Positions 9,563-32,724 of a stretch of 46,580 nucleotides of DNA are shown here, piece by piece (within the stretch, counting starts at the first letter, position 1; each line of letters opens with the position of its first letter). The notes beneath the pieces are model-generated. The model had not been told where the DNA came from and did no database searches. It saw only the letters and a program-made list of their open reading frames with translations. Made by a program: the position numbers and the translations under genes. The DNA is taken from positions 1 to 46,580 of the IMG/VR virus record IMGVR_UViG_3300034063_000567. The stretch is one strand, 5' to 3'. This DNA is from a virus.

Positions 9563-9653
9563 ATCACGACGTTGGTCTCTAGCAGGGTTTGATATATTTT
9601 GCATAGGTATATACGGTACTTACAAACTCCCTGCTAGAGATCACACTCGTGAC
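9563..9653. repeat. Inverted-repeat element copy 1
   Basis: Perfect 12-bp arms TCTCTAGCAGGG (9576-9587) and CCCTGCTAGAGA (9629-9640) flank a 41-base AT-rich core with ATAGGTATATAC in the middle. The outer flanks also pair imperfectly (TCACGA... with ...TCGTGA). The element shares arm sequence, spacer length and core with those at 18416 and 22735. It stands between genes just upstream of a promoter and the helicase gene. Confidence 0.85.
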
Positions 9654-9677
9654 TTTATTTACTTTGACGAGTGAACG

Positions 9678-9705
9678 TTGACTGCCCTTTGGCAGTATAT
9701 ACAAT
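9678..9705 (+). promoter_or_regulatory. Sigma70-like promoter before the replication genes
   Basis: TTGACT (9678-9683) and TACAAT (9700-9705) are separated by 16 bases, close to the bacterial housekeeping consensus. They lie 22 bases before the helicase start codon and directly after the inverted-repeat element. Confidence 0.6.
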
Positions 9706-9726
9706 AGCACATTACAGGAACATTAC

Positions 9727-11559
9727 ATGTCTGACTACGACGACTCAGTTACAATCGGCACTGAGAGCGAGCACAAATGGTTCGTTGTGGGATCTAGGTC
9801 CTTCAACTGGTTTCGATCGATACCCGAACGCCGGCAAGACGCATCGAACTATTCTACATGGGTTTGCGCCGCGACTGACACAACACAATCAGTCATTCTT
9901 AAGAACATCGGCAACGCTAAGATTCTGTTCTCAGATGAAGACGCTGAGCTTTCGTGGAAATACCTGAGGCTTAGAGACACATCTTACGACATTGTCAGAG
10001 ACAGCGCGGCGGTCTATAAGTCGTCAAAGCGAATCCCTGACAGATGTAATTCTGAGTTAATTGACTCAAGAGCTGCTGACTACCAAAAGCTTGCGGGATC
10101 GAACAGCGCAGTTGTTGAAGGCTACGCTTTCTTCATGGAGCAGGGAACCGGCAAGACTCTCTCAGCCATCGTCAGTATGTCAAAGCTGCCTAAGGGCTCG
10201 ATGGTGTTGATAGTATGCCCAAAGCAAGTTAGACTCAACTGGCAGCGCGAAATCAAAGAGTTCTGCAAAGTTGAGACTCACGTTGAAGTTGTAAGAGGCA
10301 GTCAAATCGATAGAATCTCGGCGTTGATCGACGCCAAGAGAGCTAGCAGAACTGCACACTTAAGTGTTGCTGTGATGGGGTACGACAGTATTCCCGGCAC
10401 GTGGGAAGCGCTAAAGCTTATGAAATGGTCTTTGTGCGTAGCAGATGAGTCGCACTTCTTCAAGTCGCACTCCACAAAGCGATGGTCGTTCATGGAAAAG
10501 CTTAGAGAGACTTGCGACAAACGAATAGCCTGCACCGGAACTCCAATAGCAAACTCCATCAACGACTTGTGGACTCAGCTTGAATGGTTGTGCAAAGGAG
10601 CGAGCGGTTTCAATTCTTTTGCAGCATTTAAGCAACACTTTGGCGTTTACGATCGTAGAGGCGATGGATCGTTCGAGCGATTCTTGGGCTTGCAAAACGT
10701 ACCGATAATCAAGGACAGACTTAGCAAGTATTCGTTCTCCATAACGAAGAAAGAAGCTATGCCAAGCCTGCCCGATAAACTGTACGACGTTGTTGAAGTT
10801 GAAATGACTGAAGATCAAATGCTTGCTTATGAGAAAATGAAGACTGCTCTTCAATTCGAAATAGAAGGAGTAATGAACTCTGATCTCAATCCTTCTGTGC
10901 AAGTCAACAACATTCTTACAATGCTTATGAAGCTCGCTCAGATTACGTCAGGGTTCATAAAGACTCCCGATGTAAAAGACGCAATGGGCGACGTAATAGC
11001 TAAGGGCACTATAATCACTTTTTCTCCAAACCCAAAGGTTGAAGCACTTTCTGAAATTCTCCTAGCAAAAGGCAAGTACGACAAGACTCTAGTGTGGGCT
11101 CACTTTAAGCACGACATACAGAAAATTAAATTGATGTGCGACACAATCGGCATCAAGGCTGTGACGTTCGACGGCGGGACAAGTGACGATAACAGAGCTG
11201 AGGCTGAGCGAGCTTTTAACAACGACGATGACTGCAAGGTGTTCATCGGGAATCCCGGCGCTGGAGGCACTGGGCTAAACTTACTAGGGTTCCCTCCACA
11301 AGATCCTAGCGCATCGCAGTGCAACGCCAATCACACTATTTACTTCAGTCAAGATTGGAGCTCTTTGAAACGATCACAATCTGAAGATAGAAATCACAGA
11401 AGGGGAGTAAGAACATGCATTCAAGTGACTGACCTGTGCATAGCGAACACTATCGATGAGCAAATTCGAGAACGAGTTGCGTCAAAGAGGTTAAACGCCT
11501 TAGAGATCACTGATGTTCGAGATTTGCTTAAGAACATTTTCAACACAAAGCTGAAGTAA
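9727..11559 (+). CDS. SNF2-like superfamily 2 DNA helicase
   Basis: The protein has 610 residues. Helicase motifs are clear: motif I MEQGTGKT (residues 137-144, Lys143), motif II DESH (240-243), motif III CTGTPIANS (~270), and in the second lobe VTFDGG, NPGAGGTGLNLLGF and QDWSSLKRSQSEDRNHRRG (motifs V and VI). The last pattern, with Q..DR.HR.G, is typical of the SNF2/RapA-like branch. Such phage proteins remodel or branch-migrate DNA during replication and recombination. It is the first gene of the replication operon, behind a good promoter and the element at 9563. Confidence 0.93.
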   Translation: MSDYDDSVTIGTESEHKWFVVGSRSFNWFRSIPERRQDASNYSTWVCAATDTTQSVILKNIGNAKILFSDEDAELSWKYLRLRDTSYDIVRDSAAVYKSSKRIPDRCNSELIDSRAADYQKLAGSNSAVVEGYAFFMEQGTGKTLSAIVSMSKLPKGSMVLIVCPKQVRLNWQREIKEFCKVETHVEVVRGSQIDRISALIDAKRASRTAHLSVAVMGYDSIPGTWEALKLMKWSLCVADESHFFKSHSTKRWSFMEKLRETCDKRIACTGTPIANSINDLWTQLEWLCKGASGFNSFAAFKQHFGVYDRRGDGSFERFLGLQNVPIIKDRLSKYSFSITKKEAMPSLPDKLYDVVEVEMTEDQMLAYEKMKTALQFEIEGVMNSDLNPSVQVNNILTMLMKLAQITSGFIKTPDVKDAMGDVIAKGTIITFSPNPKVEALSEILLAKGKYDKTLVWAHFKHDIQKIKLMCDTIGIKAVTFDGGTSDDNRAEAERAFNNDDDCKVFIGNPGAGGTGLNLLGFPPQDPSASQCNANHTIYFSQDWSSLKRSQSEDRNHRRGVRTCIQVTDLCIANTIDEQIRERVASKRLNALEITDVRDLLKNIFNTKLK

Positions 11560-11560
11560 C

Positions 11561-11875
11561 ATGACAAACAGAGTGTTTATAGTTGAGGAAACCAACAAAG
11601 ACATCAGCGATGCTACTAGGCACGGAGACGTAACTATCATGTTTCCGTCAAGCGAGTTCAGGCCTAGTGTGTGGCACTACTCAATGCCCAGAGTAATTAG
11701 GCTCAAACTAGTTGACATGAGTTTCGACCCTGATTCTGACTGCATCATTGCCTTGGGCCCTAGCCCTCTGTTAATTTCAGCAATCGCCGCAGCCTTAAGC
11801 GTTTACAAACGAGTTTCAGTTCTATACTGGAATGCCTCTAGCAGCACTTACGTAAAACGAGAAGAAACAATATGA
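11561..11875 (+). CDS. Conserved phage hypothetical protein next to helicase
   Basis: The protein has 104 residues and starts one base after the helicase stop. The pattern RVFIVEE...DIS.A..HGDVTIMFP, followed by a hydrophobic stretch CIIALGPSPLLISAIAAAL and ending VSVLYWNASSSTYV, resembles a small protein often found beside helicases or polymerases in phage replication modules. I know no function for that family. It overlaps the next gene by ATGA. Confidence 0.6.
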   Translation: MTNRVFIVEETNKDISDATRHGDVTIMFPSSEFRPSVWHYSMPRVIRLKLVDMSFDPDSDCIIALGPSPLLISAIAAALSVYKRVSVLYWNASSSTYVKREETI

Positions 11876-12408
11876 CACCTGAGCAACAAAACATTTACTC
11901 TACAACTCTTAGCGCGCTTTCAGGCGTTCTTATAGCTTTGAAAGACGCAGCTGGGCAGACACATGAGAGCTCAACAATTGAGAACGACGCAGACCACGAG
12001 TATTGCCTGTCAGAGGCTTTGAGCTTGGTTGAAAACTTAAAGAAACTTATGAATAAAGAACGGTCAAGACTTGTTAAAAATGTCTGCACTAAGTGGCAAG
12101 AACGTGGAATTCCCGAACCTGTGCGCACAGAGTACTTGACTTCAACACCATACATCACTGTTATGCCCAAGCTGCCCAGCCCGACATCGGCTGACACTAG
12201 ACTTGCGTATCAGGAAATGCTGAAGAGCTTCGGTATGAACTTCGACGCTGTGTCGTTCGATCTGTTCAGGCCTTATTGGCCAGGCTTTTCTACGTACGTT
12301 GCGGAACTTCAGTCACAGGGAAAACCAATCCCTCCCGGCTGCAAGCCCGCTAGTTTCATCAAGTTTGACCTCAAGCACGCTAAGAAGCGGAAAGGAGTCA
12401 CAGAGTAG
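11872..12408 (+). CDS. Hypothetical protein in replication operon
   Basis: The protein has 178 residues and is coupled by ATGA to the preceding gene. The N-terminal half is helical (residues ~1-85), the middle is Pro-rich, and the C-terminus is basic (KHAKKRKG). No motif is recognised. The basic tail and location suggest a DNA-associated accessory protein, but this is only a guess. Confidence 0.5.
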   Translation: MTPEQQNIYSTTLSALSGVLIALKDAAGQTHESSTIENDADHEYCLSEALSLVENLKKLMNKERSRLVKNVCTKWQERGIPEPVRTEYLTSTPYITVMPKLPSPTSADTRLAYQEMLKSFGMNFDAVSFDLFRPYWPGFSTYVAELQSQGKPIPPGCKPASFIKFDLKHAKKRKGVTE

Positions 12409-12453
12409 TTAGCCCCGTTTGTTACTAGTCTTCAACTTTACAAGGTATTTACA

Positions 12454-13284
12454 ATGTCAAAGAAAAGTTCTACTGATCTGTCTGTCCCGGGCGCACCAAA
12501 TGTGGCGCTTTCTGTTGTCCCTGATCACATGCTAGCCGACGGAGCAATGGGTACAGAGACTCTACGAAAGTACGTGTTGCCCCCGAGGATTCTTGTCGTG
12601 CAACCCACAAGCAAGCCGCCTCTTGATAAGCACGACGCTGGGACTGCAATACTTCTTCCGGGCGAAGTGATTCTATCATCGTGGTCTAAAGCTGATTCAA
12701 TGAGCAAGACTCCGATTATTTTTACTCCCATTTACCAGTTCAACGAATTCACGCTTGACAACCCTCTGGAAATTCACCAGAGTCACGGTCGAGTTCGAGA
12801 GCGCACTTTTGACTCAAATTCCGACTTGGCTCGGCGTGCAATGTCAAGGGACGCTTCTATTCGTGAAATTCCTTGCCCTGAAATGCCTGACAAACGATGC
12901 CGTTACGTTATGCGCATGAACTTTCTGTGGATGATTACATCATCGGAAAGTAACACTGGGTTCACTCCGTGCTTTGTGAGCTTCAAAAGGACTGAAGCAA
13001 ACTCGGCAAGAGCGCTCAACACTCTCATTATGGCGCGACAGGCTCCGATTTTCGGCTGCTCGTTCGCAGCTGTTGTGGGAAAGCGATCTAACGATCGAGG
13101 AATCTGGTATGGATTCGATATCACCAACCCGCCGCTTGAGTTCAGCCCGTGGGTTAGTGACCCTGAGCTGTACCAAAAGTTCAAGGCTGCTCATGAAGCT
13201 GCCAAAGAGGCTCATGACGCAGAGTTGTTTGAAATCAGCGACGCTGATGAAGGCGTAGTTGAATCTGTTAACGCCGATTTTTAG
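12454..13284 (+). CDS. Putative ssDNA-binding / replication accessory protein
   Basis: The protein has 276 residues. The segment PPRILVVQPTSKPPL followed by AGTAILLPGEVIL is the pattern of a phage family (P-R-x-x-V-Q-P...pGd/e) repeatedly found between helicase and primase or polymerase genes. The middle is beta-rich and the C-terminus is strongly acidic (ELFEISDADEGVVESVNADF), like the acidic tails of ssDNA-binding proteins. It has an AAGG ribosome site and its own downstream terminator, consistent with high expression. The ssDNA-binding role is inferred from context, tail and fold pattern. Confidence 0.5.
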   Translation: MSKKSSTDLSVPGAPNVALSVVPDHMLADGAMGTETLRKYVLPPRILVVQPTSKPPLDKHDAGTAILLPGEVILSSWSKADSMSKTPIIFTPIYQFNEFTLDNPLEIHQSHGRVRERTFDSNSDLARRAMSRDASIREIPCPEMPDKRCRYVMRMNFLWMITSSESNTGFTPCFVSFKRTEANSARALNTLIMARQAPIFGCSFAAVVGKRSNDRGIWYGFDITNPPLEFSPWVSDPELYQKFKAAHEAAKEAHDAELFEISDADEGVVESVNADF

Positions 13285-13306
13285 TTGACAAAGTGTCACG
13301 TTAACG

Positions 13307-13337
13307 CCCGCCGTAACCACGTCGTTACGGCGGGTTT
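13307..13337 (+). terminator. Rho-independent terminator
   Basis: A perfect 11-bp GC-rich stem, CCCGCCGTAAC (13307-13317) with GTTACGGCGGG (13324-13334), has a 6-base loop and is followed by TTTCTCT. It sits in the short gap after the putative ssDNA-binding gene, allowing that gene to be expressed above the primase gene. Confidence 0.88.
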
Positions 13338-13351
13338 CTCTAAACATTCGT

Positions 13352-16189
13352 ATGGACACTATGCGCAGCTTTATCAACATACCGGCAGAGCTTCAACGGC
13401 ACAACATCGAGTACTTGCCTTTGAACGAGTCTGAAATAAGCACATGTTGCCCGTTTCATGAAGATACTTCTCCTAGCTGCCACATTCACTTAGAAAAGCA
13501 GACGTTCATTTGCAGAGCGTCTCACTGCGCTGAGTCAGGAGATATAGTATCGTACTTAGCTAGGCACTTGAAAGTGTCTCGTAACGAAGTAGTTCAGGAC
13601 TTAACTACTCGTTACCCGATGTCTAATGAACCCACTGTGTCGGGAGAAGTAGTAGAAAAGTACCACCGTCGCATCTGGGTAGCACACGTACTTCTTCACG
13701 AGCTCAAGAAGCGCGGAATAACTGACAACGACATTAGAACACACAGATTAGGCGAACACAAAGGCCGAATAACAATACCGATTAAAAACGAATCAGGAAT
13801 GTTCGTTAACATTCGGTCGTATCTGCCTGGAGCGCCTGGCGCTGACAAAATGAAGAATTTGAAGGGAAGAGCTAAACAGTTGAGGCTGTTCCCTGTCTCT
13901 CAAATGAGCTACCCAAACATCATTATTTGCGGCGGTGAAATGAAAGCTATCGTCACAGCAAGAGTGATGAATAAGCACAACTTCGGCGCAGTCTGTGTTA
14001 CTGGCGGTGAAGGCGCCTGGGAGCCGTATTTGACTCCGTTGTTCTTGGGCAAAAGCGTGTGGGTCATGCTAGACATTGATGCAGCGGGAGTTGTTGCATC
14101 AAATAACGTGTGCAAATACTTAGCACGAACTGTGTCAGAGCTTTACAACGTTAGACTCCCTCTGGATATAGACACGTACCCTAAAGGCGATATTAACGAT
14201 TACGTTGCAGATTTTGAGGACAAAGGAAACGGAAACTTACTTGAAGTCATAAAAGACACTCAGTTGTGGCAACTTGAGAAGAGCGAACGATATTCAGACG
14301 ACGAAACGCCAGTTGAAGTTACTTTAACTCAAACGGGTCAGGCGTCATACACAGCAGTTAAGGTAGAATTCACGGCGACTGTGTCAACTTTAGACACGTC
14401 TCCGTACGTAGTGCCCAAGGAAGTAGTTGTTGAGTGCAGTAGAGACCAAGATTGCTGTTCGATATGCCCTGTGTTTTTCAACGCTCCTGAGCACGTTTAC
14501 ACAGTGCATCCCGAATCGGCCGCCATTTTAGACATGGTTGGGCAGCGTAAATTTAGCCAAGTTTCAGCACTAAAGGAAGAATTCCAAGTGCCTGAAATGT
14601 GCAAAGTGTGCAAGTTTACTCCGTCTACTTACTGGAATGTAGAAGACAGTCGACTGTGCCCTCAACTGGCAATCACAAACAACTCAGCCGAGAGACCCTT
14701 AATGCCCGCGTTATGCGTAGGTGACTCTCTAGAGTTGAATGAAACGTATAGAATGACTGGGCGAATGCACCCTCATCCGCTAACTCAACAAAGCACACTA
14801 GTTGTTTCAAAATACTCGGCAGTTCACGACGCACTTAGCAACTATGCTATACAGGATTCACATCGACTTGAGGTGTTTAAGCCCAGTGAGTGGACGTTAT
14901 CAGCAGTCAAAGACAAACTAAATGATGTGTACAATGACCTTGCGGCTAACGTCACTAGAATATATCAACGAACTTCGCTTCATGCAATGATCGACTTGGC
15001 GTACCACTCATCGCTGCTGATACGGCTTGATGATAAATCAACTAAGGGATGGGTTGAAGTTCTTGTAGTAGGCGATTCTGCACAGGGAAAATCTGAAACA
15101 GCACTTAGTATGCAGTCACATTACGGCCTTGGAGAGAAAGTTGAGTGTAAGAACGCGTCTGTTGCGGGTCTTTTGGGCGGCCTTCAACAAATGGGCTCTA
15201 GATGGTTTGTGTCGTGGGGATTGTGGCCGACTCACGACAGGCGACTTTTGATTCTAGAAGAAGTTAAGGGCGCCTCAACAGATGTACTTGGAAAGCTTAC
15301 AGATATGCGAAGCTCAGGGTTTGCAGAAATACCCAAAATTGAGAGACGCAGGACTTACGCACGCACTCGCACAGTGTGGTTGAGCAACCCTCGGTCCAAC
15401 ATGTCGTTAGACAGGTACAGCTACGGAGTAAACGCAATTGTAGAGTTAATAGGCTCTCTAGAAGACGTTAGACGATTTGACTCTGTCATGCTGGTAGAAA
15501 AATCTGAAGTTGATAGCAGCCTTATTCACAACTATCACTTGACTGGAATGTCGTATGAGCACAAATACACGTCGCAGTTGTGCAGAGACTTGATACTGTG
15601 GTGTTGGACCCGGCCTCATGCTGAGTTCACAGATAGAGCTCGAGTAATGACAATGGAAGCGGCACAACAACTAACTCAAGAGTTCACTGACACTATTCCT
15701 ATAGTTGACAAAGGCAGCATGAGGTACAAAGTCGCTAGACTTGCAGCGGCTGTTGCTGGGCGCACCTTTAGCGGCACTGACTCATTAGAGCACGTGTTAG
15801 TTAGACAGTGCCACGTTGAGTGGGTTGCTGAGTTCTTGAGAGAAATCTACAGCACTACAGCAATGGGCTACAAAGCGTTCACTGAAGCCGAGTCAGCGAA
15901 CAACGTGCTAAGTGACCCTCAGGAGATCATCAAGCGACTTGGAGAGGTTCCGTATCCCGCGGACTTTATACACAGCTTGACTCATGCAAGTTTTATAGAC
16001 TCAAGAGACATCATGGACTGGTGCCAGTGGCCGCCTGAAGAATGCAATAGGCTTATTTCGTTTTTGGTAAGAAAAAGGGCGTTCAAGAGAGTCAACAGAG
16101 CTTACGTAAAAACTCCGGCATTCATTTTGCTTTTGAAGACTCACGGTTCAATAGTTCGAGATAGACCAGATTACGTAGAGGAATTTTAA
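13352..16189 (+). CDS. DNA primase fused to MCM-like AAA+ helicase
   Basis: The protein has 945 residues. The N-terminus has a CHC2-type zinc finger (CCPFHEDTSPSC from Cys32, then CRASHC). A TOPRIM domain follows with ICGGEMKA (Glu196) and MLDIDAAG (Asp241, Asp243), the primase active site. From about 365 there is a zinc-bearing OB-like region (Cys368/369/372, Cys417/420, then YRMTGRMHPHP) as in the MCM N-domain. The AAA+ core has Walker A GDSAQGKS (574-581), Walker B LLILEE (632-637), sensor 1 VWLSNPR and RRFD (707-710), the MCM arginine-finger pattern. It would both prime and unwind at the phage fork. Most phages use DnaB-type helicases, so the MCM partner is unusual. Confidence 0.88.
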   Translation: MDTMRSFINIPAELQRHNIEYLPLNESEISTCCPFHEDTSPSCHIHLEKQTFICRASHCAESGDIVSYLARHLKVSRNEVVQDLTTRYPMSNEPTVSGEVVEKYHRRIWVAHVLLHELKKRGITDNDIRTHRLGEHKGRITIPIKNESGMFVNIRSYLPGAPGADKMKNLKGRAKQLRLFPVSQMSYPNIIICGGEMKAIVTARVMNKHNFGAVCVTGGEGAWEPYLTPLFLGKSVWVMLDIDAAGVVASNNVCKYLARTVSELYNVRLPLDIDTYPKGDINDYVADFEDKGNGNLLEVIKDTQLWQLEKSERYSDDETPVEVTLTQTGQASYTAVKVEFTATVSTLDTSPYVVPKEVVVECSRDQDCCSICPVFFNAPEHVYTVHPESAAILDMVGQRKFSQVSALKEEFQVPEMCKVCKFTPSTYWNVEDSRLCPQLAITNNSAERPLMPALCVGDSLELNETYRMTGRMHPHPLTQQSTLVVSKYSAVHDALSNYAIQDSHRLEVFKPSEWTLSAVKDKLNDVYNDLAANVTRIYQRTSLHAMIDLAYHSSLLIRLDDKSTKGWVEVLVVGDSAQGKSETALSMQSHYGLGEKVECKNASVAGLLGGLQQMGSRWFVSWGLWPTHDRRLLILEEVKGASTDVLGKLTDMRSSGFAEIPKIERRRTYARTRTVWLSNPRSNMSLDRYSYGVNAIVELIGSLEDVRRFDSVMLVEKSEVDSSLIHNYHLTGMSYEHKYTSQLCRDLILWCWTRPHAEFTDRARVMTMEAAQQLTQEFTDTIPIVDKGSMRYKVARLAAAVAGRTFSGTDSLEHVLVRQCHVEWVAEFLREIYSTTAMGYKAFTEAESANNVLSDPQEIIKRLGEVPYPADFIHSLTHASFIDSRDIMDWCQWPPEECNRLISFLVRKRAFKRVNRAYVKTPAFILLLKTHGSIVRDRPDYVEEF

Positions 16190-18255
16190 TGGCGCTTAGA
16201 TTTTCTAGAAACGGCGGAATAATGATTGAGTCTCTTGAAGAGCTCAATAAAATCGCCATGCCTGGCAAGACACTGTTTCTTGACTTAGAAACGACAAGCT
16301 TTGATGACGACAAAATGTCTGTCAACCCGTGGCACGACTGTTGGGTGTTGGGAGTGTGCGTAAAGACTGAAGAGACTCCTGCGTATTACATACCCGTAAA
16401 TCACAGGCACTACGAGCACAACATAGACGCCACTGAAGTGCAGCAATGGTTAGTCAACGTTGCGTTTGAGGGCAAAGCTCGTTGGGTTAATCACAACATA
16501 AAGTACGACGCGCATGTGCTGTATAACGCTCTAGGGATTGACGCCTCAGTGCCGCTGTACGACACTCTTGACTTGGCTAAGCTTGTTGATTCAGATAGAA
16601 TGCGTTACAGCTTAGACGCACTTAGCTACGATTGGCTGAAACATGATATTAACGTCTTTGAAGACGCCTTTAGCCCGTATTTGAAGAACGGTCGAGGTCA
16701 CACTATTTGCAAAGACTATGGAGCAGTCCCTCCCGACATCATGGCGGAATACGGCTGCCAAGACGTCATCACCAACGAGAAGTTGTGGAATTACATAGGT
16801 CGACACATGCCGCCCGAGTCTATGCAGCTTGTAGAGATCAGTTCACAGCTGACTGAGGTGTGCCTAAGAATGGAACGGCACGGCATGCCTATCAACATGC
16901 AGATGTGTAAAGAACGAATGTTCGACACATTGTCAGAGTTGATTAAAATTGAGACCGAGCTAGAGGCAGAGGTCGGCTACGCGTTTCTTCCACACAACTC
17001 AAAAGACTGCTTTGATGTTTTATGCTGCCATTACGGGCTTCCGGTTTTGGCCTACACTGAGGGAAAGAAGTCTGACGACTCAGAGCCGTTAGAAGGAGAC
17101 GCACCTAAAGGTAACCCCAGCTTTGCTGCTGATGTGCTTAGAAAGTATTTGGCACACCCTGAAGCGCCCAGAAACGTTATTGAGAAAATGCTTAGATATC
17201 GTCGACTTAAGACGTTTATAAGCTACTTTCTTGAACCTTGGGACGAACTTGAAGTAAACAATTTCTTGCATGGAAGTTACAATGCAACTGTTCGAACAGG
17301 TCGAATGTCTTGCAGTAAGCCCAACATGCAGCAGTTGATGGATGAAGCTAAAGACCTTGTTGTAACTCATGATGAAGACTACACTATAGGATCAATCGAC
17401 TACTCTCAAATTGAGTTTAGAATGATTGTGCATTACATTCGTGACGAGTCTTGCATAAAGTCGTACAATGACAACCCTCTAACTGACTTCCATGACTGGG
17501 TTAGAGATATGTGCCAGATTGATCGTAAGTCTGCTAAAACGTCCAACTTCCTTATGGGTTATGGTGGCGGTAAAAGCACTCTTATCAAACAGCTTATATC
17601 GATCGACACTCTGGTGTCTGACATCATAGATGAATTGAAGTCTGACCCTGACTATTTAGCTGCAGATAGCAACATCAAGTCTTCTATGTTCACTGAACGA
17701 GCCACAAGTAGAGCTACGGGAGTGTATAACAAATACCACGACACTCTTCCCGGGATTAGAATCACAAGTAGAGCAGCAATGAACAAGGTTCTAAGCCAGG
17801 GTTATGTAACTAATTGGTTCGGAAGGCGTCGTAAACTACCTCCGGCCTTCGCCTATAAGGCGTTTAACAACTTGTGCCAAGGTTCATCTGCTGACTTCAT
17901 GAAAGAGAGACTATGTTCGTTACACTATTGGCTTAGAGATAACGTACCAGAGGTCGTACTTATTGGAGTCATACATGATGAAGTTCTATTTTATGGCCCA
18001 ACTAGCTGTATGACTGATTACGTACTGAACTCTATATCGTACATACTTGAGGATTCAAGTCGACCCTTTAGGATTCCTATTAGGACGTCACTTGGTTTGT
18101 CAACTAAATCGTGGTATGAAGCTGTCCATGATGATTCAATACGGGATTTTGATAGGTTGACCTTTAGGCCGGATAACTACCAACAAACTTACGATAGAGG
18201 GTTGAGTGACCCATGGAGTGATGCTGATGACCTACCACAACCTACTTCAACGTAA
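16189..18255 (+). CDS. DNA polymerase I family (family A) with 3'-5' exonuclease
   Basis: The protein has 688 residues and starts on the last base of the primase stop; an in-frame ATG at 16222 is an alternative. The exonuclease domain shows FLDLET (Asp32, Glu34), NHNIKYDAH and a later YGCQDVITN. The polymerase domain shows motif A IDYSQIEFR (Asp404), motif B RKSAKTSNFLMGYGGG and motif C IHDEV (His596-Asp597-Glu598). There is no 5'-nuclease domain; that activity is encoded separately at 24818. It is the likely replicative polymerase, acting with the primase-helicase just upstream. Confidence 0.95.
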   Translation: MALRFSRNGGIMIESLEELNKIAMPGKTLFLDLETTSFDDDKMSVNPWHDCWVLGVCVKTEETPAYYIPVNHRHYEHNIDATEVQQWLVNVAFEGKARWVNHNIKYDAHVLYNALGIDASVPLYDTLDLAKLVDSDRMRYSLDALSYDWLKHDINVFEDAFSPYLKNGRGHTICKDYGAVPPDIMAEYGCQDVITNEKLWNYIGRHMPPESMQLVEISSQLTEVCLRMERHGMPINMQMCKERMFDTLSELIKIETELEAEVGYAFLPHNSKDCFDVLCCHYGLPVLAYTEGKKSDDSEPLEGDAPKGNPSFAADVLRKYLAHPEAPRNVIEKMLRYRRLKTFISYFLEPWDELEVNNFLHGSYNATVRTGRMSCSKPNMQQLMDEAKDLVVTHDEDYTIGSIDYSQIEFRMIVHYIRDESCIKSYNDNPLTDFHDWVRDMCQIDRKSAKTSNFLMGYGGGKSTLIKQLISIDTLVSDIIDELKSDPDYLAADSNIKSSMFTERATSRATGVYNKYHDTLPGIRITSRAAMNKVLSQGYVTNWFGRRRKLPPAFAYKAFNNLCQGSSADFMKERLCSLHYWLRDNVPEVVLIGVIHDEVLFYGPTSCMTDYVLNSISYILEDSSRPFRIPIRTSLGLSTKSWYEAVHDDSIRDFDRLTFRPDNYQQTYDRGLSDPWSDADDLPQPTST

Positions 18256-18288
18256 AGGACCTTCAGGTTGAGGTCGATAGGTTTGATG

Positions 18289-18311
18289 GGTACAATACTC
18301 TGTATTGTACC
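18289..18311. repeat. Perfect 10-bp inverted repeat with 3-base loop
   Basis: GGTACAATAC (18289-18298) and GTATTGTACC (18302-18311) flank TCT. There is no T-tract after it, so it is not a typical terminator for the polymerase gene, although weak termination cannot be excluded. Confidence 0.85.
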
Positions 18312-18352
18312 ATGGACTTACATTAAGTAAATAGTATACAACTGTACACTCT

Positions 18353-18370
18353 TTAACCAACCTTGGTTAA
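18353..18370. repeat. Perfect 8-bp inverted repeat TTAACCAA-CC-TTGGTTAA
   Basis: The two arms are separated by only two bases, a spacing more like a protein-binding dyad than a hairpin. It lies between a TGTACACT motif (18343-18350) and the larger inverted-repeat element. Confidence 0.8.
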
Positions 18371-18415
18371 CCCTTGGGCCCTATTGATGAATCGTATCGG
18401 TACCACGTTACAGGG

Positions 18416-18476
18416 CTAGCAGGGTAGGGCACCCAGTTTAATAGGTACATAATACCCACTTTAACACCCTGCTAGG
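18416..18476. repeat. Inverted-repeat element copy 2
   Basis: CTAGCAGGG (18416-18424) and CCCTGCTAG (18467-18475) flank a 42-base core with TTTAATAGGTACATAATA. Arms, spacer and central AATAGGTA match the elements at 9563 and 22735. The outer flanks are less alike than in the other two copies. Confidence 0.8.
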
Positions 18477-18492
18477 AACCATCTAGATGATA

Positions 18493-18656
18493 CCCGTGGG
18501 CCCTCAAGAGATCTCACCCGTGGGCCCTCAAGAGATCTCATGTATACCTATACGTATGTACACCCCGTGGGCCCTCAAGAGATCTCACCCTAGGGCCCTC
18601 AAGAGATCCCATGTACACTAGTATACATACGTACACTATAGATCTCTTGAGGGCCC
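18493..18656. repeat. Iteron array: four 24-bp direct repeats and one inverted copy
   Basis: Units lie at 18493-18516, 18517-18540, 18564-18587 and 18588-18611, as two tandem pairs. Each contains GGGCCCTCAAGAGATCTCA; the fourth differs at three positions. A 16-base inverted copy, GATCTCTTGAGGGCCC, is at 18641-18656. Each unit includes the palindromes GGGCCC and AGATCT. Between the pairs and before the inverted copy lie related GTATAC/GTACAC-rich spacers. Confidence 0.9.
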
Positions 18657-18685
18657 TCATAAAAATAATTCTCAAAAAGACCTAC

Positions 18686-18721
18686 GTACACTATATTTAC
18701 TTCCTAAGGTTATGGTAAACT
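18686..18721 (+). promoter_or_regulatory. Promoter-like block shared with 8613-8649
   Basis: GTACACTATATTTAC (18686-18700) then TATGGTAAACT (18711-18721) repeats the combination found before the small-gene pair at 8.7 kb, over almost the same total length. It precedes the next small-gene cluster, so it probably directs or regulates transcription there. Confidence 0.5.
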
Positions 18722-18736
18722 ATCCTTATCTAAACG

Positions 18737-18832
18737 ATGGCTTTCAACATGGAACTCATCGTTGGACTCATCCTTATCGGACGGCCACGGTTTTGGATGA
18801 CAATTTTGGCCGGTTGTTCTTTGACAATCTGA
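18737..18832 (+). CDS. Possible 31-residue hydrophobic peptide
   Basis: An ATG at 18737 opens a short frame for a peptide beginning MAFNMELIVGLILIGRPRFW and ending with a further hydrophobic stretch. It could span a membrane. No good ribosome site precedes it, so it may be chance coding in a leader. It lies between the promoter-like block and the lysine-rich protein gene. Confidence 0.25.
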   Translation: MAFNMELIVGLILIGRPRFWMTILAGCSLTI

Positions 18833-18844
18833 GGTATTTACACT

Positions 18845-19369
18845 ATGGCAAAACAGCCAGTCGGACCAAGTGTCCCAGCTACCAAAACCGCAACAAACGT
18901 TGCTCCAGTTTTGGCCACCCCTACGGCACCAGTCGAAGGAAAGAAGAAGAGGACCAAGAAGGAGAAGAAGGAAAAGATCGAAAAGATCGAGTACCGATTC
19001 GACCCAAAACTCTTCCCAGCTGAAAAGTTTCCAGACGGAAACGGACCCTTGATCGAAGGATCGGTCCCACCCGCTGACTACAATCCGAAGCAACACAAAG
19101 GGTTGCGTCGGACGGATTTTCAGAAAGCGTCGGACTTCTATTCCTATCGAGCAGATATTTGCGAACAGCAAGCAAAGGACTTCCGAGTTAAGGCAGCCCA
19201 AGAGGGAACCGAAAACAAGAAGACCAAGCGATTCATCGCATTGCAAAACCAAATGGCAAATCTGCTTTCGGAATTGCAATCTGACTCCGGATTCGATCTG
19301 ACGAAAGTTGCGAACAACGACCTACTCAAGGCATTGCTTGAGAAGACCGAAAAGCCCGCGACTAAGTAA
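18845..19369 (+). CDS. Lysine-rich charged protein of unknown function
   Basis: The protein has 174 residues. A low-complexity Pro/Ala/Thr-rich start (1-32) leads to a dense basic stretch (GKKKRTKKEKKEKIEKIE, about 32-49), then a mixed region and a helical C-terminus. A GAGG site stands before the ATG. Codon choice (CCA, GGA, ACC) differs from the tail genes. The basic N-terminal region suggests nucleic acid or nucleoid binding. It is the first solid gene after the putative origin, so a DNA-binding or early host-takeover role is plausible but unproven. Confidence 0.6.
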   Translation: MAKQPVGPSVPATKTATNVAPVLATPTAPVEGKKKRTKKEKKEKIEKIEYRFDPKLFPAEKFPDGNGPLIEGSVPPADYNPKQHKGLRRTDFQKASDFYSYRADICEQQAKDFRVKAAQEGTENKKTKRFIALQNQMANLLSELQSDSGFDLTKVANNDLLKALLEKTEKPATK

Positions 19370-19392
19370 ACACACTCTTTGACAATCAGAAA

Positions 19393-19426
19393 CTCTAAGC
19401 CTAGGGGGAGCACCTCTAGGCTAGAG
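19393..19426 (+). other. Intercistronic hairpin without U-tract
   Basis: AGCCTAG (19398-19404) pairs with CTAGGCT (19416-19422); CTCT and AGAG extend the stem past one bulged A. No T-run follows. It may stabilise or process mRNA between two small, probably strongly expressed genes, or terminate weakly. Confidence 0.5.
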
Positions 19427-19484
19427 TAGTCAAAAGATCCAACTGTGGATTTTCAACATTACTCACATTACGAAAGGAACAGAC

Positions 19485-19814
19485 ATGGAAAATCGATTAG
19501 CCGATTCGGCACTCGAAGAACTAATGTCAGTTCGATTCAAAAAGTGGTACAAGACGCAGAAGGACGTCGACCTACTGAAGTTGGTCGTCGGACTTCACGC
19601 CAAGACCCACAACACGAGAGTTTTGACTCTCCTCGCTTTGACCAAACTGCTGGCTAAGTGGTACCCAGACGCGATTAAAGACGCTACGGGATACGTCGAA
19701 CACGAGTACGGTACGAACTACACGGTGACAAATGGCGTCTTTGAGATCCTGGACGACAAGGGCCAATTGATCGATACGTTCAGTCCATTCTGGGCAGGCC
19801 CTTACAACGAGTAA
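19485..19814 (+). CDS. Conserved small protein, paralogue of the gene at 8709
   Basis: The protein has 109 residues and an AAAGGA ribosome site. It aligns with the 8709 product through LLALTKLLAKW, YVEHEYG and the terminal TFSPFW; the leaders share CTCACATTACG. The N-terminal quarter is much more divergent than the rest. No known domain is recognised. Two copies in separate transcription units, each behind the same promoter-like block, suggest duplication followed by specialisation. Confidence 0.62.
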   Translation: MENRLADSALEELMSVRFKKWYKTQKDVDLLKLVVGLHAKTHNTRVLTLLALTKLLAKWYPDAIKDATGYVEHEYGTNYTVTNGVFEILDDKGQLIDTFSPFWAGPYNE

Positions 19815-19830
19815 GATCAGCTTTCACACT

Positions 19831-19855
19831 GGGGCCCTAACACGGCCCCTCATTT
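19831..19855 (+). terminator. Probable weak terminator
   Basis: GGGGCC (19831-19836) and GGCCCC (19844-19849) form a 6-bp stem with a 7-base loop, followed by TCATTT. It lies in the short gap after the paralogue gene. Confidence 0.5.
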
Positions 19856-19869
19856 ACGAAAGAACACCA

Positions 19870-20277
19870 ATGGACGACGCACGTAAGAAAGCGCTAAAGG
19901 CGCTAAAGAGAGAGATCCAGATCAAGAAGTCTGGGTTGAAGGCTCTCTACTATTCGTTCAACAGGCCACATACGTACGACTTGTTGATTGAAGAGAACGA
20001 AGCAAAGATCAGAGCGCTTGAAGTTGAAAACGCTCGACTACGATCAACAATGAGCAGGCTGCCCGATGCGATAGAACGGGCTGAAAGGGACATTAAGGTC
20101 CTGGAACGCAAGCTGTCTCTCCTCGAGACAGATGCAGAAACTCAAGTGACCGACATCACGTCAAAGCTTGTGGCCCTTCTTGGCAAGCTTCCGAACGGCA
20201 GTCAATCACTCACACCACAACTACAGCAAGCACTCGATAAGCTTATGAAAGGCAAGAACAATGCTAGTAACAGTTGA
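19870..20277 (+). CDS. Coiled-coil protein of unknown function
   Basis: The protein has 135 residues, nearly all helical, with heptad-like spacing from about 40 to 95 (EENEAKIRALEVENARLRS, then ERDIKVLERKLSLLE). The start has a GAAAG ribosome site. It overlaps the next gene by 17 bases. Coiled-coil small proteins are common in phage early regions and often bind host proteins; no specific function can be read here. Confidence 0.55.
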   Translation: MDDARKKALKALKREIQIKKSGLKALYYSFNRPHTYDLLIEENEAKIRALEVENARLRSTMSRLPDAIERAERDIKVLERKLSLLETDAETQVTDITSKLVALLGKLPNGSQSLTPQLQQALDKLMKGKNNASNS

Positions 20278-20476
20278 CAACTGGGCTGTTTCCCAAACAA
20301 TCGACTTCCGAGCTAAACAAGTGACTCTTAAAGTTTTTGACGTTATTACTAGAGTCCCTCATCCCGAACTCAACGGGTTGCAGATACCGTACTTAACTTT
20401 CAAGGGGCTTCAGATCGCTAAGAAAGTTCTGGATGAGGTTTGCGTAGAAGCGAACGTTCTTATAGAACGTGCTTAG
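20261..20476 (+). CDS. Small hypothetical protein
   Basis: The protein has 71 residues, with an AAAGG site eight bases before the ATG inside the end of the previous gene. It is predicted mixed beta then alpha. No motif is recognised. The overlap suggests translational coupling with the coiled-coil protein. Confidence 0.5.
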   Translation: MLVTVDNWAVSQTIDFRAKQVTLKVFDVITRVPHPELNGLQIPYLTFKGLQIAKKVLDEVCVEANVLIERA

Positions 20477-20492
20477 ATAAGACTTCACACTC

Positions 20493-20518
20493 AAGCAGCC
20501 GGTTTCGATCGGCTGCTT
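20493..20518 (+). terminator. Hairpin, possible terminator
   Basis: A perfect 9-bp stem, AAGCAGCCG (20493-20501) with CGGCTGCTT (20510-20518), has an 8-base loop. The tail is ATGTGTG, not a T-run, so termination efficiency is doubtful. It separates the small-gene cluster from thyX. Confidence 0.55.
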
Positions 20519-20554
20519 ATGTGTGCAGTTTGTAAGTTCAACAAAGGAGGCTGT

Positions 20555-21403
20555 ATGTCATTTCCGATGAAAATTCGATTCGGGGAAGAACCCACTACCG
20601 AGTGGTTCTCCTCAAAAGACAACATCAAAGTGTTGATGTTGTCGTGGCCCAAAAGAGGGTTCAGGAGTAAGTGCTATGCTATGATCAAGTCAACGTGGGC
20701 TGATGAGCCTATTGATGTCACTGACGATGACGACGATCGACCTGAGATCAGGGAGACATTCATGAACTTACTTACCGGTAAAGTGCTACCTAACTCAATG
20801 GAGCACTTACTGTTTACGTTTCGTATTGAGGGTCTGACGCTTATTGAAGTGACGCACATGTTGCGGCACAGAACGATGTCGTCAGTTCACGCTCAGTGCA
20901 CTGCAGATAGATTCTTGCATCATGATTCTGCGTTCATTCCGCAGTCTATATTGAACTCTAAATTTGCCGATAGGTATAAAGAGTTGACCGAGTCGTGCAA
21001 AGAGCTGTACGCAGAAATGGTTGATAGCAAAGACATATCTTTGCTTGACGCCCGCTACATTCTTACTCGAAACCATCGCTACTTTTACTACTTCACTATG
21101 AATCTAAAAGACGCGATGATGTTCATCAACCAGCGAAAATGCACTCAAATTCAGCCTGAACTTGACAATGTAATCGCTCACTTAGTGCATCGATGCATTA
21201 GTCATATTGTGCCTGAGTTCGCTCAAGTTGTGTCTCTTGATTGTGGGCCCAGCTGCTTCTATGTTAAGGCTCCTGATGAAGACAACAGCAGGCTGTACAA
21301 ACCCGACGAAGTTCATGCTCGCTACGTGAGAACGGACTTCACAACTCTGTACGACAAGACTCGAAAAGAAATGGGAGCTGGGTTCAACCCTCAAGACAAA
21401 TGA
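20555..21403 (+). CDS. thyX: Flavin-dependent thymidylate synthase
   Basis: I chose the ATG at 20555 because a perfect AAAGGAGG lies four bases upstream; an in-frame ATG at 20519 sits beside the hairpin and lacks one. The product has 282 residues. The ThyX signature appears as RHRTMSSVHAQCTADR, a version of RHRxxSxxxxSxR. The later ARYILTRNHRYFYYF and NLKDAMMFINQRK match the conserved C-terminal helices. It makes dTMP from dUMP using FAD and methylenetetrahydrofolate, feeding phage DNA synthesis. It is coupled by ATGA to the ligase gene. Confidence 0.88.
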   Translation: MSFPMKIRFGEEPTTEWFSSKDNIKVLMLSWPKRGFRSKCYAMIKSTWADEPIDVTDDDDDRPEIRETFMNLLTGKVLPNSMEHLLFTFRIEGLTLIEVTHMLRHRTMSSVHAQCTADRFLHHDSAFIPQSILNSKFADRYKELTESCKELYAEMVDSKDISLLDARYILTRNHRYFYYFTMNLKDAMMFINQRKCTQIQPELDNVIAHLVHRCISHIVPEFAQVVSLDCGPSCFYVKAPDEDNSRLYKPDEVHARYVRTDFTTLYDKTRKEMGAGFNPQDK

Positions 21404-22227
21404 AAACATTTGATACTCACAGGCACTCAAGCGCGCACTACAGGTTTGCGCAACTGAAGATCGACGGATTCTTCATTCAGGTTAATAGAAACTTGCTGGG
21501 CGCTTTGCAGTGCGTTACTAAGGGCTACAACAACGTTGACTTATCGTTCTTGAAGGGCTTCTACCAGTTCGAGAACCTCGGAAAGTACGAAACGCTGCAG
21601 TGCGAGTTGTGGAAACCCGGTCAACCCGCTAGCTACGTTAGTACGGGAATCGCAACTAAAGACGCAGACATGCGCCTTGATGTGCATGGCGTAAAGTCAG
21701 TTGTCGGCACTAGAGAGCATGAAACATACTTCAATAAGTGTCTGGAAGCTCAATCAGAGTTTTGCGCAGAGCTCGATCTGCCGTTTGTGGGCTTCTTTGA
21801 TAGAGAGAATTGCTCGTCTAGCATGGGAAAGTGGCACTCGGTAGACACGTTCGACGAGGAGTGGATTAAAGCTCAAGGCGTTGAAGGCGTAGTGCTTAAA
21901 GGCGGCGGAAACGAGCCGCTGAAAGTCAAGCCGTTCACGACTTGTGACCTTGTAGTTGTCGACGTAAAGCCCGGTAACGAAGGCAAGTACTTTGGAATGA
22001 TAGGTTCGTTAACTTGTGCAACAGCTGACGGCATTGTCGTCGCCAATGTCTCAGGTATGACGGACGAAGAAAGAGCTGCCTTATCAGTGGCTCATGACAA
22101 CGGTAGACTGTTGGGCACAATAGTTGAAGTTAAATACCAAAAAGTTGGCGCGAAGGGTAAGCTGCGACACCCTTCATTTGTGCGAATCCGCACTGATAAG
22201 TTCGTGGCAGACACTGTTCTAGCATAG
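21400..22227 (+). CDS. ATP-dependent DNA ligase
   Basis: The protein has 275 residues, near the size of minimal viral ligases. Nucleotidyltransferase motifs are present: motif I KIDG (Lys20 would carry AMP), CELW as motif III, VEGVVLK as motif IV and LKVKPF as motif V. An OB-like C-terminal domain follows, ending with KLRHPSFVRIRTDK. The N-terminus is short, with only ~19 residues before the lysine. It seals nicks between Okazaki fragments and works alongside the separate 5'-nuclease and polymerase. Confidence 0.87.
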   Translation: MKTFDTHRHSSAHYRFAQLKIDGFFIQVNRNLLGALQCVTKGYNNVDLSFLKGFYQFENLGKYETLQCELWKPGQPASYVSTGIATKDADMRLDVHGVKSVVGTREHETYFNKCLEAQSEFCAELDLPFVGFFDRENCSSSMGKWHSVDTFDEEWIKAQGVEGVVLKGGGNEPLKVKPFTTCDLVVVDVKPGNEGKYFGMIGSLTCATADGIVVANVSGMTDEERAALSVAHDNGRLLGTIVEVKYQKVGAKGKLRHPSFVRIRTDKFVADTVLA

Positions 22228-22234
22228 GTGAAAC

Positions 22235-22699
22235 ATGAAAGTGTATTTGGCAAGTCCGTGGTTTAACGCAGAGCAAGAAGAACGCCGTCTGAGAGTGTTG
22301 AACATGCTCGTAAGCGAAGGGCTTGACGTCTTTAGCCCGAAAGACGACATGTTGTTCAAGCCCGGCGAAACTACGCCTCTTCAAGTTGTTGACGCCAATT
22401 GCGATGCGATTGAAGAGTGCGATGCGATTGTTGTGATCACTGACGGTAAAGACGTTGGCACAATGTTTGAAGCAGGGTACGCCTACTCATTGCACGCAGT
22501 CGGAGCAAATCCTCAGTTCATTCTCTATCTCTGGGAGGGCGGCGCAGCTTTAGACCCGGGTAAGTTCAACTTGATGCTGGGGGCGACTGGGCAAGTCTTC
22601 ACTGACGTTGAAACGCTTCGCGGAGTGATCCGAGGGCTCAAGGAAACGGGAGAATACGAAGCCGATGTCGGCGTAATTCCCGATGACCAGTTGGAGTAA
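22235..22699 (+). CDS. Nucleoside 2-deoxyribosyltransferase-like protein
   Basis: The protein has 154 residues with an AGGTGA ribosome site. The pattern is that of the family: KVYLASPWF at the N-terminus, DVFSPKDD, then ECDAIVVITDGKDVGTMFEAGYAYS. Glu79 in the FEAGYA segment is in the position of the catalytic nucleophile. Such enzymes exchange or hydrolyse bases on deoxynucleosides; in phages they may salvage host nucleosides or adjust unusual nucleotide pools. It lies directly after ThyX and ligase and before an HD nucleotidase, all pointing to dNTP management. Confidence 0.78.
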   Translation: MKVYLASPWFNAEQEERRLRVLNMLVSEGLDVFSPKDDMLFKPGETTPLQVVDANCDAIEECDAIVVITDGKDVGTMFEAGYAYSLHAVGANPQFILYLWEGGAALDPGKFNLMLGATGQVFTDVETLRGVIRGLKETGEYEADVGVIPDDQLE

Positions 22700-22734
22700 G
22701 ATTTTAGGTTAAACAGTTCAAAACATGATCCACG

Positions 22735-22827
22735 AATCACGACGTTGAATCGTAGCGGGGTGTGATACATTCTTAATAGGTAATATAGGCCTTATGTCAT
22801 ACCCCGCTAGAGACCAACGTCGTGATT
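22735..22827. repeat. Inverted-repeat element copy 3 (longest arms)
   Basis: AATCACGACGTTG (22735-22747) and CAACGTCGTGATT (22815-22827) pair perfectly, and the inner arms TAGCGGGG (22753-22760) and CCCCGCTA (22802-22809) also pair, around a 41-base core with TTAATAGGTAATATAGG. The right arm read in reverse gives TCACGACGTTGGTCTCTAGC, identical to the left arm of the copy at 9563. The element fills the gap before the HD nucleotidase gene. Confidence 0.88.
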
Positions 22828-22861
22828 CCCTACTTCCCACTACTTTCACAAGGAACTCGTA

Positions 22862-26210: not shown

Positions 26211-26617
26211 AGTCTAAGTTTACACGTATTGTGTGCAAGCAGCTAGAAGACGTAGGATGCATTATTACTGTTGTTACGGGCAACAAGTTCACGATGAACA
26301 ACGCTGACAGAATTATCACGTCTTTGTGGGGAATCTGGCATCTAGAGTTCAAAGCTGAGAACACGCCGCTAAGGGCGCCACAACAACACTCTCTAGAGCT
26401 TCTAAACTCTAGGCGTTCGTGGTGCGCATGGGTGATTCGTCATGATTCTGATCTAGGTCGTTCTGGAGGGCACGTTCTTACGCCAGATCAAAAGAGCACT
26501 TTGGGAGAATTTAGGAACGGCAAAGAGCTTTTGTGCCGCCTTGTTACGTGCGAAAGAACTGTATGCCAGGAAAGAAATGACTGCTTTACGAGATTCCCGC
26601 ATTTCGTTGATAACTGA
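26204..26617 (+). CDS. VRR-NUC-like nuclease
   Basis: The protein has 137 residues with GGAGAG before the ATG. The N-terminal helix LESKFTRIVCKQLED is followed by ADRII (Asp35) and IWHLEFKAE (Glu48-x-Lys50), the D...ExK core of the PD-(D/E)xK superfamily, then QQHSLELLNSR, the Q-helix typical of VRR-NUC proteins. These phage proteins cut branched or flap DNA. It closes the DNA metabolism block. Confidence 0.75.
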   Translation: MLESKFTRIVCKQLEDVGCIITVVTGNKFTMNNADRIITSLWGIWHLEFKAENTPLRAPQQHSLELLNSRRSWCAWVIRHDSDLGRSGGHVLTPDQKSTLGEFRNGKELLCRLVTCERTVCQERNDCFTRFPHFVDN

Positions 26618-26957
26618 CGTTAAAACTGTGTCTGGATGGTTTTTATAAAATATTGGAAGTCCCATGTCGCAGAGAAAAAATCAGAGGCCTGTAAGAGATT
26701 ACCAAAAAGTTACCCATATTACCCAGTTTAACTGTGTATTATTAAGGGCAGAATCCCGAGTACCACCCTCTATAGTATATAAATCTATAACCCTAGATTC
26801 CGCTTAGTCTAGTTAAGCTCTCAGGCAACTTGGAGTTCGTTTTGTTGTGTTAATCCAGCATCTTGCAATTTTTTAATTTTATGGTTGGATATTAAAACAC
26901 AATTTTGTCGTCAGTTATCAACGAGTTACGAGAATCTCAGTCAGTAAAGGAATAATT
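26618..26957. other. 340-base gene-free gap before the sigma factor unit
   Basis: No credible gene is present. The region is AT-rich and contains an inverted-repeat candidate (26748-26803) and a poly-purine ribosome site just before 26958. ACCCAGTTTAA at 26720-26730 also occurs in the core of the element at 18416. It probably carries the promoter and control region for the zinc-finger and sigma genes. Confidence 0.5.
26748..26803. repeat. Possible fourth inverted-repeat element, divergent
   Basis: GCAGAATC (26748-26755) and GATTCCGC (26796-26803) pair at seven of eight positions around a 40-base core with TATAGTATATAAAT in its centre. Arm and core sequences differ from the other three elements but length and layout agree, and it again precedes a transcription unit. 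Confidence 0.4.
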
Positions 26958-27254
26958 TTGAGAGAAGACAGGCTTAGACGAATTGAAGCACTCTTACCAA
27001 AAGACAGAAAGTGTTGGCATTGCGGAGAGGTTAAGTTAAGATCTCGGCAGTGGGTTTTGTTAGACACGTTCATCGGTTGTCGTTCGTGCTGGATGCTAAA
27101 CGGAAAACCTAGAGGCATAAAGCCTCTAATACGCGACGTGGCGCCAAGAGAATTCTCGAAGTGCTGCGACAGTTGTGGGCAAATTATCACTGACAAATCA
27201 AACTGGCACTTCAGACTTAGGATATGCAAAAGGTGCGTCTATGGGAGATCTTAG
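26958..27254 (+). CDS. Double zinc-finger protein upstream of sigma factor
   Basis: A TTG start at 26958 follows AAAGGAA. The product has 98 residues with two CxxC pairs: CWHC...CRSC in the first half and CDSC...CKRC in the second, enough for two zinc ribbons. It is basic. It overlaps the sigma gene by 14 bases. A DNA-binding regulator of late transcription, or a small endonuclease-like zinc protein, are both possible. Confidence 0.6.
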   Translation: MREDRLRRIEALLPKDRKCWHCGEVKLRSRQWVLLDTFIGCRSCWMLNGKPRGIKPLIRDVAPREFSKCCDSCGQIITDKSNWHFRLRICKRCVYGRS

Positions 27255-27762
27255 TGACGACGAAGCGATGTCGCTCATGTGGAAATTTATCGAAACTCAC
27301 TACATCGACATCATCTCGTGGTGCAAGAGAGCAGCTAGAGGCAATCCTCATTTGGCCGAAGAGCTCTTTAGCGATGAAGTCTTGCGAATGATGCCCAACT
27401 TAATCAAGAGGTGGGATCAGACTCGGCCGTTCTACACGTATGCTCGGTCGTACTTCTTTTTGCACTTGAGAAAGAAAGCGATCTCACGACAAAAGAAAGC
27501 GCACAAACAACTTGACGAAAACTTCGCAGGAATGAAATGCTCAGAAGTAGATGTAAACAGCCTTGAGGCGACCGAGTATACTGACTGGTTGTTGGACTGC
27601 TTGTCGCCCGTCGATAAGTTCATTGTCAAGAACGTAGTTATGAAGGGTCTGACGCTTAGAGAAGTCTCAGAGTTGGTGCCCTACACTTACACAGCTGTGC
27701 ATATGAGACTTAAGAGATCATTAGAACTACTGCGTGAACAGGCAGGCACACGTGGCGAATAA
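27241..27762 (+). CDS. Phage RNA polymerase sigma factor (sigma70-like, small)
   Basis: The ATG at 27241 has AAAAGG upstream; the in-frame ATG at 27175 lies deep in the previous gene. The product has 173 residues. A region 2-like block (HLAEELFSDEVLRMMPNLI, then FYTYARSYFFLHLRKKA) and a C-terminal region 4-like helix-turn-helix (LSPVDKFIVKNVVMKGLTL, then REVSELVPYTYTAVHMRLK) are in the order of ECF-type sigma factors. It lies just before the packaging genes, so it likely redirects host polymerase to late promoters. Confidence 0.8.
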   Translation: MGDLSDDEAMSLMWKFIETHYIDIISWCKRAARGNPHLAEELFSDEVLRMMPNLIKRWDQTRPFYTYARSYFFLHLRKKAISRQKKAHKQLDENFAGMKCSEVDVNSLEATEYTDWLLDCLSPVDKFIVKNVVMKGLTLREVSELVPYTYTAVHMRLKRSLELLREQAGTRGE

Positions 27763-29165: not shown

Positions 29166-29195
29166 GCTGTTAGAGGGCTTCAGCTTGAGTGCAAC

Positions 29196-29231
29196 CCGCT
29201 GAGTCGATTAACTTCGACTCAGCGGTGTTTT
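29196..29231 (+). terminator. Strong Rho-independent terminator
   Basis: A perfect 12-bp stem, CCGCTGAGTCGA (29196-29207) with TCGACTCAGCGG (29214-29225), has a 6-base loop and a TGTTTTCT tail. It ends the sulfotransferase unit. Confidence 0.88.
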
Positions 29232-29244
29232 CTATAGGAAGACT

Positions 29245-32636: not shown

Positions 32637-32665
32637 CGCCCAGTGCGGGAAGTCACTGCGGCGTT

Positions 32666-32702: not shown

Positions 32703-32724
32703 CTACAGTAGAATCGAAAGTTAT

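Follow-up and report, generated by a model that had tools for sequence, protein, structure and literature searches.

The 46,580-base record of an uncultivated phage (IMG/VR record IMGVR_UViG_3300034063_000567; analysed over its whole length, called the window below, and scanned as G000) contains three intergenic inverted repeats, A, B and C, which by their sequence are diverged copies of one element of approximately 95 bp. The three-copy element is real, goes beyond chance, and has an unusual fixed geometry. Each copy consists of two inverted half-sites of approximately 25 bp (consensus ATCACGACGTTGGTCTCTAGCRGGG) separated by 41-42 bp:

Element A: 9563-9653, plus strand; half-sites 9563-9587 and 9629-9653, AT-rich spacer 9588-9628, ATAGGTA at 9603-9609
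Element B: 18400-18491, plus strand; half-sites 18400-18424 and 18467-18491, spacer 18425-18466, ATAGGTA at 18441-18447
Element C: 22734-22828, plus strand; half-sites 22736-22760 and 22802-22826, spacer 22761-22801, ATAGGTA at 22776-22782

The inner arms (TAGCRGGG / CCCYGCTA), their spacers (41, 42 and 41 nt in A, B and C) and the central ATAGGTA had been reported in a preliminary description of the window, and all were recovered where that description had placed them. TAGCRGGG is intact in all six half-sites. It occurs nine times in the window against 1.24 expected, a count that no shuffled sequence reached, and the paired-arm pattern is found only at A, B and C (zero in a reversed-pattern control). 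The ATAGGTA core has the same orientation in all three copies and lies 19 nt from the right arm in each; its distance to the left arm is 15 nt in A and C and 16 nt in B. The spacers are identical at only 17-21 of 41 positions between elements (41-51%), while their length is nearly constant. A covariance model built from A, B and C found no fourth copy in the window.

We compared the half-sites as read toward the centre of each element (A: left ATCACGACGTTGGTCTCTAGCAGGG, right GTCACGAGTGTGATCTCTAGCAGGG; B: left GTACCACGTTACAGGGCTAGCAGGG, right ATCATCTAGATGGTTCCTAGCAGGG; C: left ATCACGACGTTGAATCGTAGCGGGG, right ATCACGACGTTGGTCTCTAGCGGGG). The left half-site of A and the right half-site of C are identical at 24/25 positions, whereas the two half-sites within A, and likewise within C, agree at 20/25. 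The similarity of A-left and C-right extends to 91% over 34 nt in inverted orientation, and the identical stretch common to the two arms is ATCACGACGTTGGTCTCTAGC. Long outer arms common to two elements had already been noted; on the right of B a diverged outer arm is likewise preserved (18/25 identical to A-left), so all three copies come from one long-armed element. The left half-site of B is strongly degenerate outside TAGCAGGG.

We tentatively read the element as a paired-half-site regulatory site for early/middle operons, bound as DNA by a protein. Because the half-sites are more alike between elements (A-left/C-right) than within them, it seems to be sequence rather than pairing that is kept; this, together with fixed spacing around spacers of only about 50% identity, favours protein-bound DNA over an RNA hairpin. 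The fixed spacer and the register of the core fit a nucleoprotein complex. A phage or host protein may bind both half-sites together and bend or bridge the centre, and three non-structural blocks would then be switched together (SNF2-primase-polymerase; g174-ThyX-ligase-nucleoside deoxyribosyltransferase (NDT); YfbR-exonuclease-sigma factor). Binding, regulation, direction of effect and partner protein are what we infer from the DNA sequence. If the sites do bind a phage regulator, they offer an entry point to the timing of replication genes in a large group of uncultivated phages, and a 25-bp bait for finding that regulator.

The positions of the elements and of the neighbouring promoters bear on how such a site might work. 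A lies between the last structural-side gene and the SNF2-helicase gene (the boundary of the late and SNF2 blocks), B between the DNA polymerase gene and the g174-ThyX-ligase block, and C at the boundary of the NDT and YfbR blocks. The three copies are located at the three boundaries dividing the non-structural region, each at the head of a block of replication or nucleotide genes, and no copy occurs among the structural genes of the window. The following features lie beside A and B:

9678-9705, plus strand: TTGACT-16-TACAAT, a sigma-70-like promoter for the SNF2 operon, on the downstream side of A (10/12 matches, score 10.5)
9644-9673, plus strand: small inverted repeat CACTCGT-16-ACGAGTG, read by eye, overlapping the right outer arm of A
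18268-18296, plus strand: promoter-like TTGAGG-17-TACAAT, upstream of B (9/12 matches, weak)
18485-18657, plus strand: GGGCCCTCAAGAGATCTC repeats, both tandem and inverted, which follow B closely and lie in the longest non-coding gap

A promoter for the SNF2 operon downstream of A is likely. It lies 21 nt ahead of the SNF2 start codon, its score is equalled or exceeded in 0.75% of random 183-nt segments of the window, and four relatives have a promoter at the equivalent place (12/12 matches in G026 and G017, 10/12 in G013 and G009; scores 10.5-12.5), an agreement that we count in favour of the paired-half-site reading. If used, this promoter would start the transcript past A, so A would not be part of the SNF2 leader. 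The placement of the elements just upstream of new gene blocks, proposed in the preliminary description, holds as far as gene order goes; at A, the likely promoter is downstream of the element. Near B, the -10 of the weak upstream candidate falls inside a GGTACAATA/TATTGTACC palindrome, and a second candidate lies downstream, at 18669. No recognisable promoter was found next to C.

Within the elements, the best sigma-70-like scores are 8 (A), 8.5 (B) and 8 (C), compared with 10.5 downstream of A, and a promoter inside the element is not supported. Among the roles suggested earlier, an operator-like DNA site is the best supported (half-site conservation and fixed spacing), while the internal promoter, with scores of at most 8.5, is not. 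At A a recognisable sigma-70-like promoter lies downstream of the site, at B one probably lies upstream of it, and next to C there is none. Operators flanking a standard promoter would therefore be less likely than a site for repression or road-blocking, or one at which an activator serves a central non-sigma-70 promoter.

Several points weigh against a paired DNA site. No DNA-binding partner was identified, and a single transcription factor was found, the sigma factor encoded at 27196-27762, which has no demonstrated link to the sites. The centres of the half-sites are 49-50 bp apart, or approximately 4.7 helical turns, which is not an integral number. The single variable core position changes together on both arms (A/T in A and B, G/C in C), which is also what pairing would lead one to expect. 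Recent gene conversion could instead account for A-left and C-right being nearly identical. Finally, the element is absent from every relative searched, all of which are distant.

In kind, we place the element with those inverted control sites of phages that are dispersed and specific to a lineage. Dispersed control sites between phage modules also include the stoperators of cluster A mycobacteriophages, operator sites that can act wherever they lie relative to a promoter. A stoperator is a single short and asymmetric site, present in many copies and recognised by a known repressor, whereas the sites described here are long and form inverted pairs, and no repressor is known for them. The nearest known kind in logic is the ESAS (extended start-associated sequence) of cluster K mycobacteriophages (PMC3203893). 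ESAS are imperfect inverted repeats whose 17-bp arms stand 4-13 bp apart; they occur in many copies, mostly together with a 13-bp SAS (GGGATAGGAGCCC) placed at the start codon. Both are multi-copy, phage-specific imperfect inverted repeats before genes, found only in the non-structural half and with one half-site nearer the consensus. However, the present element has arms of approximately 25 bp and, around a central core, a spacer fixed at 41-42 bp; it exists in three copies, and no SAS GGGATAGGAGCCC was read in the stretch from each element to the start codon that follows; membership of ESAS fails on the spacer and the 13-bp SAS. As cited in PMC4503421, the PeSL cassettes of T4-like phages combine an early promoter with a stem-loop; going by that citation, they resemble the element as repeated regulatory cassettes between gene modules, and differ in that A, B and C have no recognisable internal promoter.

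An alternative that we regard as possible, though unlikely, is that the element acts as RNA: a long hairpin at operon boundaries in read-through transcripts, cut (for example by RNase III) or protecting mRNA ends, like the hammerheads of the relatives. On the coding strand, A and C form strong folds (-40.6 and -51.9 kcal/mol; z approximately -8), the other strand folds less well, and the middle stem of C is kept with G-U pairs on the coding strand where the opposite strand would have A-C mismatches. However, the coding strand of B folds no better than shuffles (z -0.4) and its other strand folds better, the outer arms drift without compensation, and A, upstream of the likely SNF2-operon promoter, would be outside that leader. 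We rejected the sense-strand preference for G-U pairs as proof of RNA function, as B and many hairpins of the relatives go the opposite way; the coding-strand preference of the relatives' elements is mixed. The small inverted repeat at 9644-9673 competes for pairing with the right outer arm of A. Rfam gave no match in the window at the gathering score and none at any useful level, the sub-threshold matches around A and C being hairpins, mostly of microRNA families. Intrinsic terminators were also considered and rejected: the terminator scan lists none of A, B and C, whose loop is 41-42 nt, and a U-rich stretch follows the outer arm in A alone.

In a set of the relatives, long-spacer inverted repeats between genes greatly exceed chance: 17 score at least 12 (0.9 in shuffles), and 10 of these have spacers of 36-57 nt (0.35 in shuffles). 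The RNA reading is favoured by plain long hairpins just ahead of ribosome sites in G003, G030 and G032, and by the many hammerheads of the relatives. Two repeats in a slightly lower-scoring set are the stems of textbook type II hammerhead ribozymes. A descriptor scan of the relatives gave 36 hammerhead hits, all but one type II; as some loci overlap, the total includes a few hits twice. We built a covariance model from 20 of these hammerheads, and it recovers most of them (its training sequences match by construction) plus further copies, with E-values down to 2e-10. Many of these ribozymes stand between genes, and in G003, G004, G007 and G026 one immediately precedes the g174 homologue, g174 being the gene after B in the window. 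The positional equivalence of element and hammerhead is good for B, before g174. It is not convincing for A: where the gene order is the same, the relatives have a promoter there and not a ribozyme.

The window itself contains no type II hammerhead by the descriptor (GAAA-stem III-UH-stem I-CUGANGA, with open stem II), and the best match of the hammerhead model (R2) reaches 11.4 bits (E 0.09) and lies outside A, B and C. The elements are like the type II hammerheads of phages and prophages (PMC3088659) in that relatives carry these at comparable boundaries, including before the g174 homologue, but they have neither the CUGANGA and GAAA core nor the three-stem layout. Hammerheads of type II, as well as groups of several hammerheads around prophage genes, are known from earlier work (PMC3088659), so those of the relatives are context here and no new class. 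The earlier suggestion of a structured 5' leader keeps the relatives' use of hammerheads at such boundaries in its favour; it is excluded for the SNF2 transcript at A, if the downstream promoter is used, and loses ground at B, given the folding of its coding strand. Control at gene boundaries differs among these related phages: many have arrays of type II hammerheads, while this phage has a palindrome of paired half-sites.

The hammerhead loci themselves show some further features. Many type II hammerheads, up to five per locus, lie between early genes in L110/L185, L097/L100, L111/L187, L112, L115/L192, L123/L228, L135, L157, L174, L176, L178, L180, L172, L173 and L215 (this list is not exhaustive). 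Rfam searches at the gathering score of seven loci (L185 included) and of six loci listed none of these hammerheads. Sigma-70-like promoters occur inside the hammerhead before g174 in L180 (18161-18229; TTGACA-17-TAGAAT) and, read by eye, TTTACA-17-TATAAC likewise in L174 (2139-2206). In both the -10 is in stem III, so that RNA begun at these promoters would be missing the ribozyme's first half. In L201 (approximately 1960-2070; from G017), a hammerhead-like unit before g174 has the core CGUUGAAUAAGAC in place of CUGAUGAGAC, and is perhaps a dead or variant ribozyme. L187 (from G010) also contains, at 2633-2744, a near-perfect palindrome of 112 nt with 37-nt arms of CTAGGACGGC repeats.

It is rather improbable that the element is a small mobile or dispersed palindrome, similar to a REPIN or MITE, which a transposase, or recombination between copies, spread to intergenic places and which would need no regulatory role. 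Three diverged copies confined to intergenic DNA, the 24/25 identity of A-left and C-right (as after a copy or conversion event) and an inverted doublet of REPIN size would all suit such an origin. REPINs belong to host genomes, where they number in the hundreds and are linked to RAYT transposases; in the GI type, 71 bp separate the starts of the two 16-mers (PMC3116915). Like REPINs, the elements have two inverted conserved ends, a less conserved spacer, a length of approximately 90 bp, hairpin-forming potential and extragenic positions. Unlike them, they number three, in a phage with no recognised transposase: none, RAYT included, was recognised among the open reading frames scanned with PHROGs and Pfam, RAYTs usually being host-encoded. 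All three copies also lie exactly at module boundaries with the same core orientation and a kept core register, and an exact 21-mer scan gave no copies in 84,980 species genomes, while searches of phages and plasmids found none either. For a mobile palindrome, the copies themselves are the only positive evidence.

We consider it improbable that A, B and C are sites of replication or module exchange, with the origin-like GGGCCCTCAAGAGATCTC repeats beside B and the elements as recombination boundaries between modules. Each element does separate two gene modules, and the repeats at 18485-18657, which could be origin-like or a repressor array, adjoin B. However, they are found at B only, and the GC skew has no clear turning point at the elements. 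Least credible is that A, B and C are cis-acting RNAs of an undescribed class, processed or self-cleaving, which took the place of the type II hammerheads at early-operon boundaries in this phage lineage.

How widespread the element is was addressed by several searches. The covariance model of the three copies, which the preliminary description had proposed for a search of related phages, could be built, but it found no copy in 1.26 Mb of these distant relatives. Broad scans of IMG/VR for the core with arms, or for the outer arm, returned no relative of the element, and annotated phage and plasmid records gave no credible match. An exact-arm scan of IMG/VR returned 93 stretches, about or below the estimated chance level for so short a pattern; when arms and ATAGGTA were combined, only the window's own copies remained. 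The same arms occur twice with a 41-nt spacer in an Enterococcus prophage (L033), which we judged a coincidence: they belong to a repeated RNA-like unit, after which comes a terminator-like hairpin, in an unrelated phage. These repeated units (CCTAGCGGGG...CCCCGCTAGG, plus the hairpin) lie at 2774-2825, 3037-3088 and 4887-5495 of L033 and are possibly type I toxin-antitoxin RNAs.

The genomic setting is that of a phage with distant relatives. The 9-23 kb region of the window has no DNA-level match among 50,697 phage records, the closest relatives by protein share 53% (primase) and 43% (DNA polymerase) identity, and a capsid-based scan for relatives found none. Gene orientation is almost entirely on the plus strand across the window. 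The SNF2 helicase heads the block preceding B, with primase and DNA polymerase at its end; g174, ThyX, ligase and NDT follow B; and a YfbR-like nucleotidase, a 5'-3' exonuclease and the sigma factor follow C. The sigma-factor gene (27196-27762; PHROG 1740, E 2e-6) lies directly before the terminase and structural genes, and its product is a candidate late-gene regulator. An AlphaFold model of the sigma factor from the single sequence was poor (mean pLDDT 53) and was not used.

The window begins and ends with an exact 240-bp direct terminal repeat (1-240 and 46341-46580), either a true terminal redundancy or an assembly overlap of a circular map. A 42-nt inverted repeat (26590-26631 / 26897-26938), 83% complementary with a gap of 265 nt, encloses a region with no clear gene. 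Short terminator-like hairpins lie in the gaps 13284-13352, 29165-29245, 32636-32826, 33152-33232 and 43468-43564. The first of these separates a gp34-like gene from the primase gene, so primase and polymerase would need read-through.

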